This document shows positions 15,905 through 17,729 of a DNA stretch of 64,000 nt, piece after piece (position 1 is the first letter of the stretch; each line of letters starts with the position of its first letter). The notes beneath the pieces were generated by a model. It ran no database searches and was not told where the DNA came from. It saw only the letters and a program-made list of their open reading frames with translations. The position numbers were made by a program, and so were the translations under genes. The stretch is from Ilumatobacter coccineus YM16-304 (lineage in GTDB: Bacteria; Actinomycetota; Acidimicrobiia; Acidimicrobiales; Ilumatobacteraceae), in the NCBI RefSeq assembly GCF_000348785.1, contig NC_020520.1, positions 2,356,001 to 2,420,000 on the forward strand, read 5' to 3'.

Positions 15905-17146
15905 GTGATCGTCGTAGGACTGACCGGTGGCATCGGTGCCGGCAAATCAACCGTGTCGAAGCTGCTCGCCGAACGGGGGGCCGCGATCGTCGACGCCGAC
16001 CAGATCGCGCGTGATCTGCAAGCGCCCGGTACTCCGGTGGTGCAGGCGATGGCCGAGCGCTTCGGCAGTCAGATCCTCGACGACGACGGTGCGTTGATCC
16101 GGCCCGAGGTGGCGAAGATCGTGTTCAGCGACGAGGCGGCGCTGAAGGACCTGAATGGCATCGTGCACCCGGCGATGCAGGCCGAGATCCAGCGGCAGAT
16201 CGACCTGAACAAGGACACCGATCGCCTCGTGGTGCTCGACTTCCCGCTGCTCGGGGAGAACCCGAGGAAGGGACTCGCCGCGACGATCGTCGTCGACATC
16301 CCGTACGAGTTGGCCGTGGTGCGTGCCGTGGCGCGCGGGATGGACGAAGAGGACGTCCGCAACCGGATCAACAGCCAGATCACGCGCGAGAAACGGCTCG
16401 CAACGGCGACGCACGTGATCGACAACAGCGGTGATCTCGTCGACCTCGTCGCCCAGATCGATCGGCTGTGGGCCGAACTGATCGAATTGCCGCCGACCGA
16501 CGGACCGGTCGGCGAGCCCGCCGAGCGTGAGTCATCCGACGGTGACAAGAGCGATGCACCGGCAGCCGATCAGGCGCCACGCACCTCCTGGGTCTTCGGA
16601 TACGGCTCGTTGGTCAGTCCGGCGTCGATGGCTCGCACGATCAAGCGCGTTGCCGAGCCGGGGGTCGACTTCTTCGAGGCCGAACTCTCGGGATACGGCC
16701 GCCGCTGGAACTACGGCGTCGAGCACATCGTGGCGTCGTGGGAACTCGACGACGGGACCGTCGTCGACGACGGCGTGATCGTCGCGCTCGGGCTCGTCGA
16801 AGCGCCTGGCGAGACGGTCAACGGCGTGATCGCATCACTGTCGGCCGACGAACTCGCGTACCTCGACCGCCGCGAACGCAACTACGACCGGATCGACGCA
16901 ACCGACATCATCACGACCGCTGCCGACACGAGCGATCCGATCTACGTGTACGTCCCACGGCGCAGTGCGATCGAGCGCTACGAGACGGCACGCGACGCCG
17001 GTACGGCCGGCGTCCGCCGGACGTACTGGGATCTCGTCGACGCAGCATTCGCGGAGTTCGGCCCGGAACAACAAGCGCAGTATCGAGCCACCACGCCGCC
17101 GCCCGACGTACCGCTCGTCGACGTCCTCTCGGCGAAAGAACGCTGA
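15905..17146 (+). CDS. coaE: Dephospho-CoA kinase fused to gamma-glutamylcyclotransferase-like domain
   Basis: 413 aa. Residues 1-200 are CoaE: the P-loop [12 protein letters not shown] (5-16), DADQIARDL, and the lid region [11 protein letters not shown]. It phosphorylates dephospho-CoA, the last step of CoA synthesis. After an acidic linker (about 200-225) comes a second domain starting [11 protein letters not shown] (about 228), the GGCT-fold nucleotide-sugar-like loop, with Glu in [12 protein letters not shown] as the likely catalytic acid. CoaE is normally about 200 aa, so the fusion is unusual. The GTG start sits just after the rpsA terminator and has no clear SD. Convergent with the selenoprotein gene. 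Confidence 0.88.
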
Positions 17147-17258: not shown

Positions 17259-17729
17259 TCAGCGGAAGTCGTCGAGCTCGGCGCCGATGTCTTCCGGCGT
17301 CGTGGGCGGAGCCCAGCGCTTGACGACGTCGCCGTCGCCGTTCACGAGGAACTTCTCGAAGTTCCAGGTGATGTCGGGGCTGTCACCGTCGCCGGGTTGA
17401 GCGTCCTTGAGCAGCGCGTAGAGCGGTGCCTGGTTCTCGCCGTTGACGTCGACCTTGGAGAACATCGGGAAGTCGACGTCGAACTTCGACGTGACGAACT
17501 CGAGGATCTCGGAGTCGGAGCCGGGTTCCTGCGCACCGAACTGGTTGCAGGGAATGCCGAGGACGACGAGGTCGTCATTGTCGTGATGAAGCGCACGCAG
17601 ACCTGCGTACTGAGGCGTGAGGCCTCAAGCGCTCGCGACGTTGACGACCAGGACGAGCTTGCCCTTGTAGTCGTCGAACGTCACTTGGTCGCCCGTGATG
17701 GACGTCATGGTGATGTCATGGAATTTCAT
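17259..17729 (-). CDS. Selenocysteine-containing glutathione peroxidase (UGA recoded)
   Basis: 156 aa if UGA at 17627-17625 is read as selenocysteine. The first 34 residues (MKFHDITMTSITGDQ ... VVNVASA) lead into the TGA, then GLTPQYAGLRAL continues in the same frame to a stop at 17259. This is exactly the family site NVASxC/U-G-x-TPQY, so Sec35 replaces the catalytic Cys. The rest of the tetrad is intact: Gln67 in FGAQEP, and Trp122-Asn123 in ITWNFEKF. Length is normal. A bacterial SECIS-like hairpin follows the UGA. The protein would reduce peroxides with a thiol donor in the cytosol. A pseudogene is unlikely because both halves are conserved in one frame and nothing else is broken. The start is ATG 17729 with a weak SD. 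Confidence 0.88.
17593..17610 (-). promoter_or_regulatory. Bacterial SECIS-like hairpin
   Basis: On the minus strand, 14 nt after the UGA: stem GUACGCA/UGCGUGC (7 pairs, one G-U) around a GGUC loop. The apical sequence GCAGGUCUGC is, from memory, the same as that of the E. coli fdhF SECIS recognised by SelB, and the loop distance from the UGA (21 nt) is similar. A lower stem UGAGGC/GCCUCA that includes the UGA itself is also possible. Confidence 0.8.

Follow-up and report, generated by a model that had tools for sequence, protein, structure and literature searches.

Glutathione peroxidases (GPx) that carry selenocysteine (Sec) have been described in bacteria on several occasions. They appear in the Sargasso Sea metagenome, where a table row holds 5 sequences (PMC1088965), in the Global Ocean Sampling data, where a table row holds 40 (PMC2398784), and in Treponema denticola (PMC1794560), and they are listed in a 2026 review (PMC13188914). 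Bacterial Sec-GPx are already in print, and the gene that we present here adds a member to them. For selenocysteine together with Ilumatobacter or Acidimicrobiia, we found nothing on point in the open-licence PMC literature; PMC5330540 mentions Actinobacteria once, for Rubrobacter, and the available portions of PMC5029168 deal with Sec in other Actinobacteria and contain neither "Acidimicrobi" nor "Ilumatobacter".

The DNA analysed here (the window) is a stretch of 64,000 nucleotides from Ilumatobacter coccineus YM16-304, and it contains a gene whose product is almost certainly a glutathione peroxidase family selenoprotein, with Sec presumably inserted at residue 35. The features of the coding region, in window positions, are the following.

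17259..17729, minus strand: gene of the glutathione peroxidase family, almost certainly Sec-containing, from ATG to terminal TGA with Sec35 (translation, PF00255, PDB relatives)
17727..17729, minus strand: start codon ATG (translation; the aligned codon is ATG in L051 and L052 and GTG in L022)
17625..17627, minus strand: in-frame UGA, presumed Sec codon at catalytic residue 35 (translation; the homologous codon is TGA in 60 of 110 loci)
17259..17261, minus strand: terminal stop TGA (translation)

Translation of the minus strand from 17729 to 17259 gives 156 residues with one internal TGA, which we read as U, in the context NVASA-U-GLTPQY. A preliminary description of this DNA had reported the same 156-residue GPx frame, interrupted solely by TGA at residue 35; both the frame and the coordinates proved exact, with the strand left unsaid. 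A plus-strand reading of the interval was tried and set aside, its translation not being recognisable as GPx. The protein matches Pfam GSHPx (PF00255) with 128.6 bits against a cut-off of 27, which places it in the family, and the catalytic tetrad is present as U35, Q67, W122 and N123, the last three of which, also pointed out earlier, are invariant in 110 of 110 aligned homologues. Its top relative by sequence among solved structures is yeast HYR1 (3cmi_A; 2.4e-39, 137.6 bits), with GPX4 chains next, and the NCBIfam GPx equivalogs stay under their cut-offs (PRK10606, 166.8 against 270; gpx7, 120.6 against 207.3). Downstream of the UGA, comparison with the close orthologues L022, L051 and L052 gives dN values of 0.116–0.130 and dS values of 0.50–0.71. 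The gene thus combines the two properties by which a selenoprotein gene is recognised, namely, an in-frame UGA at the position of a redox-active Cys and conserved coding sequence beyond it. Tail to tail with it, at 15905–17146 on the plus strand, lies a dephospho-CoA kinase gene (PF01121, 175.3 bits) in one 413-aa frame, the C-terminal region of which has sub-threshold similarity to gamma-glutamylcyclotransferase/ChaC (21.7 and 20.5 bits).

Relatives were collected in two ways. When 395 genomes of the class were searched at the protein level, 159 yielded homologues, and at least 23 of the 395 have, among the matches listed, a copy holding one internal TGA; G157 and G115 have, besides the TGA copy, a listed copy without stops. 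The 30 loci taken from this search, including the window's own, were joined with the best 80 loci kept from a scan of genome contigs, and some of the resulting 110 loci may represent one organism present in both collections (L042 and L112, for instance, have identical proteins). The nearest named relative is that of Ilumatobacter nonamiensis (L051), at 83%. When these orthologues were compared for U or C at residue 35, as had been proposed earlier, the codon was TGA in 60 and a Cys codon in 50 (TGC in 42, TGT in 8); these loci were selected for matching the window's protein best, so 60 of 110 is not a rate for the family as a whole.

The capacity to decode Sec accompanies the TGA copies in the class. 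In each of the 23 listed TGA-copy genomes, selA was found with E at most 3.9e-111 and tRNA-Sec was matched with E at most 6.0e-12. This agreement supports the Sec reading without deciding it: selA is widespread in the class, the relatives are not independent, and most Sec decoders in the class are without a listed TGA copy. For tRNA-Sec, 279 of the 395 genomes are over the cut-off, and some match (E at most 0.001) is found in 394. The preliminary description had called selenoproteins sparsely reported in this class, which holds for the literature, where few mentions are found, but Sec decoding is common in the genomes themselves, with selA over the cut-off in 255 of 395. Some of the strong selA matches in the class come from family f34, in genomes near 1 Mb in size.

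If Sec is inserted at residue 35, a signal in the RNA is expected, and two structures were predicted near the UGA.

17593..17610, minus strand: putative SECIS hairpin with a 7-bp stem and a GGUC loop (17603–17600) (pairing across homologues, folding, TGA scan, codon constraint)
17611..17627, minus strand: small predicted hairpin holding the UGA, UGAGGC/GCCUCA (folds; predicted in part of the homologues only)

The first of these is 18 nt long and, as anticipated in the preliminary description, begins 14 nt past the UGA, reading from 17610 to 17593. Folding of the 42 nt from the UGA gave −18.9 kcal/mol (z −2.92), a value matched or bettered by 1 of 200 shuffles. When the folded segment is widened to 74 nt and takes in sequence upstream of the UGA, the GGUC-loop hairpin persists, but with 5 bp and as part of a more extensive fold (z −2.26; 5 of 200 shuffles). 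The small hairpin holding the UGA is probably not essential, because it is not conserved. A hairpin just 3′ of the UGA with a small apical loop containing G is the form given for bacterial SECIS elements (PMC1088965), and it is the form found here. The combination is also rare. The two strands of the window together hold 1516 TGA triplets, of which 1, the GPx one, is followed by a GGTC loop with 7 pairs at that spacing; in other stretches of the genome this was seen at 0 of 2585 TGA triplets, and at 1 of 2585 with relaxed spacing and 6 pairs. When a SECIS model derived from the GPx loci (R1) was run over the genome, with 150 of 2394 first-look candidates scored, the GPx element reached 67.9 bits and the next candidate 14.7 bits (E 0.4), and neither the SelD nor the FdhA element, described below, was reported among those scored.

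In its apex this hairpin resembles that of E. coli fdhF, in which the UGA is codon 140 (PMC4513850). A likeness of the two apices had been pointed out in the preliminary description, and the MG1655 fdhF sequence, fetched by accession, bears it out, reading TGA...GCAGGTCTGC with an identical GCAGGUCUGC apex in a hairpin that likewise follows the UGA. The two elements differ in that the GPx loop lies one codon further from the UGA and in that the 7-bp GPx stem is uninterrupted, whereas a bulged U is drawn in the fdhF stem; the host proteins are unrelated.

Several lines of evidence suggest that the hairpin is under selection as RNA. The 60 TGA loci yield 55 distinct stretches, in which 97.7% of the pair cells hold standard pairs, 6 cells are changed on both sides and the covariation score is 0.123, with 0 of 500 shuffles as high for any of the three values. 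As to how many pairs in these stretches show changes on both sides, 7 of 500 shuffles did as well; the count of further pair types was no better than in shuffles, 236 of 500 of which reach it. Double changes in the hairpin of the TGA loci are few and partly inherited. When the partners are slid by −2 columns, 73.0% of cells in the TGA stretches still pair, and 56.9% do so at +2; this high pairing when slid is due to the near-palindromic character of the hairpin. At the same positions in the 50 Cys loci, 37.7% are paired, which is under the shuffled mean of 40.0.

Codon usage points in the same direction. Within the hairpin of the TGA loci, Ala is encoded by GCA in 48 of 54 cases, compared with 102 of 799 in the remainder of these genes; the corresponding figures are 54 of 60 against 144 of 659 for Gly (GGT) and 49 of 52 against 41 of 224 for Arg (CGT). 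The Cys loci use GCA in 1 of 25 and GGT in 5 of 48 cases at the hairpin positions. This codon choice, which goes beyond what the protein would need, is the strongest argument for the proposed RNA signal. There are exceptions, namely, a GGG loop in 6 and an A–C stem mismatch in 3 of the 55 TGA stretches, and a few individual sequences, L041 and L102 among them, are predicted to fold best into a structure other than the 7-bp stem. In six TGA loci labelled as gammaproteobacterial (L069, L077, L079, L094, L107 and L126), CGGGTT replaces AGGTCT in the loop region.

A maximum-likelihood tree of the 110 rows (109 of them different), rooted at the midpoint, separates the 60 TGA rows, together with 2 Cys rows, from all the others by a branch supported at 100/98. 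Within this group is a sub-clade of 33 TGA rows (100/97), all of them from class genomes or labelled as actinobacterial. Four further rows from the class or with an actinobacterial label (L033, L036, L042 and L112) are placed not in the sub-clade but amid rows labelled as gammaproteobacterial, alphaproteobacterial and myxococcal, bearing in mind that labels of metagenome-assembled genomes can be wrong. The distribution of TGA and Cys on the tree needs 3 changes. The 2 Cys rows inside the Sec clade, L055 (3097–3138) and L071 (2367–2408), both have TGT and are without the resolving Cys discussed below. They keep 3 of 7 and 5 of 7 stem pairs, respectively, and L071 retains the GGTC loop; neither was found to fold into the hairpin. 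The L071 element looks like a decayed SECIS, and both rows would fit a reversion from Sec to Cys.

What reduces the enzyme is a separate question, and the answer is far less sure than the selenoprotein reading. By analogy with other members of the family, the selenol of Sec35, set in the Sec-Gln67-Trp122-Asn123 tetrad, would reduce H2O2 or organic hydroperoxides, and the oxidised selenium would then be reduced by a low-molecular-weight thiol, for which mycothiol is a candidate, or by an external redoxin. The position of residue 79 bears on this choice, being, as we take it from yeast and plant GPx, that of the resolving Cys of thioredoxin-dependent enzymes. Cys stands there in 47 of the 50 Cys rows (the three without it are L055, L071 and L122) and in 0 of the 60 TGA rows; the window protein has Val79 and lacks the resolving cysteine that marks a thioredoxin-dependent 2-Cys GPx. 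Given this absence, reduction of the oxidised selenium most likely depends on a low-molecular-weight thiol or an external redoxin and does not pass through the internal disulphide of the Cys-type enzymes. The sequence suggests a peroxidase with a single selenol that draws on an external thiol, most likely cycling through an adduct with that thiol. Published accounts describe bacterial GPx otherwise: PMC8614756 says that they have both a peroxidatic and a resolving Cys, and one of its headings assigns Sec in GPx to the time when Metazoa arose, a picture that the TGA clade, as read here, does not fit.

Reduction of a Sec-containing enzyme by thioredoxin or another redoxin, in place of a small thiol, is the alternative that fares best, and we consider it possible but rather unlikely. 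PMC10084747 classes environmental bacterial GPx as thioredoxin-dependent, which would favour a redoxin, and gives the resolving Cys as more than 99% conserved in an environmental set; the same source, however, links dependence on thioredoxin with the resolving Cys, and both the window protein and 60 of 60 TGA loci are without that residue. As for small thiols, the genome encodes an MshC-like protein that is distinct from CysS (419 bits as MshC against 342 as CysS; the other gene gives 427 as CysS against 285 as MshC). The MshA-like match (406.8 bits) and the MshC-like match (about 420 bits) are both under the curated cut-offs of 462.5 and 485.1, and mycothiol is a plausible candidate for the reductant. 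A candidate for glutathione biosynthesis (GshB) was rejected, the sole PF02955 match (64.8 bits) belonging to a protein that scores better as RimK (201.2 bits). The name glutathione peroxidase, used in the preliminary description, holds for the family (PF00255), but it may mislead as to the reductant.

A broader proposal, which we put forward tentatively and hold to be somewhat less probable than its contrary, is that the TGA clade, which unites Acidimicrobiia-type actinobacteria with rows bearing marine gammaproteobacterial and other labels, forms a bacterial one-selenol GPx lineage in its own right, dependent on mycothiol or another thiol in glutathione-free actinobacteria. Under this proposal, Sec would have been gained and the resolving Cys lost together, and L055 and L071 would have gone back from Sec to Cys without recovering the resolving Cys.

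Returning to the insertion of Sec itself, the preliminary description had predicted that the host would carry selA, selB, selC and selD outside the window and had made its claim depend on finding selA, selB and selC in the genome. The genome (4,830,181 bases in a single contig) has all four over their cut-offs, and all lie outside the window, so the claim is not refuted on this count. The selC match scores 66.5 bits (cut-off 47), and ARAGORN calls it tRNA-SeC with anticodon tca; selB scores 275.1 bits (cut-off 242.25) and has the SelB winged-helix domain; selA, which adjoins selB, scores 413.2 bits (cut-off 267.9); and selD scores 369 bits (cut-off 125). In 14 control genomes, the same cut-offs were passed by tRNA-Sec in 5, selB in 2, selA in 1 and selD in 2, which makes the tRNA profile, taken by itself, the least specific of the four.

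Two further genes carry in-frame TGA codons at what we take to be the usual Sec sites of their proteins. In SelD (L018:1501-2424, minus strand; C1:2441028-2441951) the codon is read as U11, in GAG-U-GCK; the hairpin downstream of it differs from the GPx one. The other gene, a molybdopterin oxidoreductase like the alpha subunit of formate dehydrogenase (L149:443-2572, minus strand, within C1:3454800-3459500), reads SCNRT-U-HAPSV and scores 625.4 bits against the formate dehydrogenase alpha model, under its cut-off of 666.25; it was found through a family search that gave 6 Molydop_binding matches, 1 of which was extended upstream for the TGA. The genome thus holds at least three apparent selenoprotein genes.

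The true selenoprotein that the preliminary description had proposed is supported by UGA35, the conserved hairpin, the presence of selA, selB, selC and selD and the orthologous TGA codons. From established bacterial Sec biology, SelD would make selenophosphate, SelA would convert Ser-tRNA-Sec into Sec-tRNA-Sec, and SelB-GTP carrying the Sec-tRNA would bind the GGUC-loop hairpin and deliver Sec at UGA35, competing there with release factor 2. UGA is reassigned in some bacterial lineages, and a near-cognate tRNA or a reassigned codon could in principle place Trp, Cys or another residue at position 35 without any Sec. We regard such readthrough as very improbable, given that the GPx gene itself terminates in TGA, that the Sec machinery is present, that the hairpin appears to be under RNA-level selection and that SelD and the FdhA-like gene bear TGA where Sec is usual. 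Least probable of all is a pseudogene or sequencing error, that is, a Cys GPx whose TGC or TGT was mutated or misread as the TGA one base away, as might be imagined from most homologues listed in the class search being without a stop, since the TGA is common to 60 of 110 loci from many assemblies in one clade, selection persists beyond it and the paired hairpin tracks the TGA loci.

The preferred reading, a Sec-containing GPx, provides a gene-level case of such an enzyme together with decoding machinery, in a class that is little covered for selenocysteine in the open-licence literature. GPx genes with TGA may easily be lost from view if the UGA is called as a stop. The coupling of presumed Sec with the absence of the resolving Cys also makes a clear biochemical prediction.

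Among known systems, the Sec-GPx of marine metagenomes and of T. denticola are the most alike, sharing the family (COG0386/PF00255), the U-x-x-T motif and a bacterial SECIS just downstream. They differ in coming from metagenomes or a spirochaete, whereas the present gene belongs to a single-contig genome with Sec machinery in the class that contains Ilumatobacter, the likeness being one of descriptions. Cys-type GPx of bacteria and yeast (HYR1, 3cmi_A) share the family and the Gln-Trp-Asn residues, but have Cys for Sec and a resolving Cys (47 of 50 Cys loci) where the window protein has Val79. Mammalian GPX4 scores below HYR1 (2obi, 107.5 against 137.6 bits), and the eukaryotic SECIS sits in the 3′UTR. 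It was nevertheless matched among the structures and, like the enzyme proposed here, it is described as a Sec enzyme without a resolving Cys (PMC10084747).
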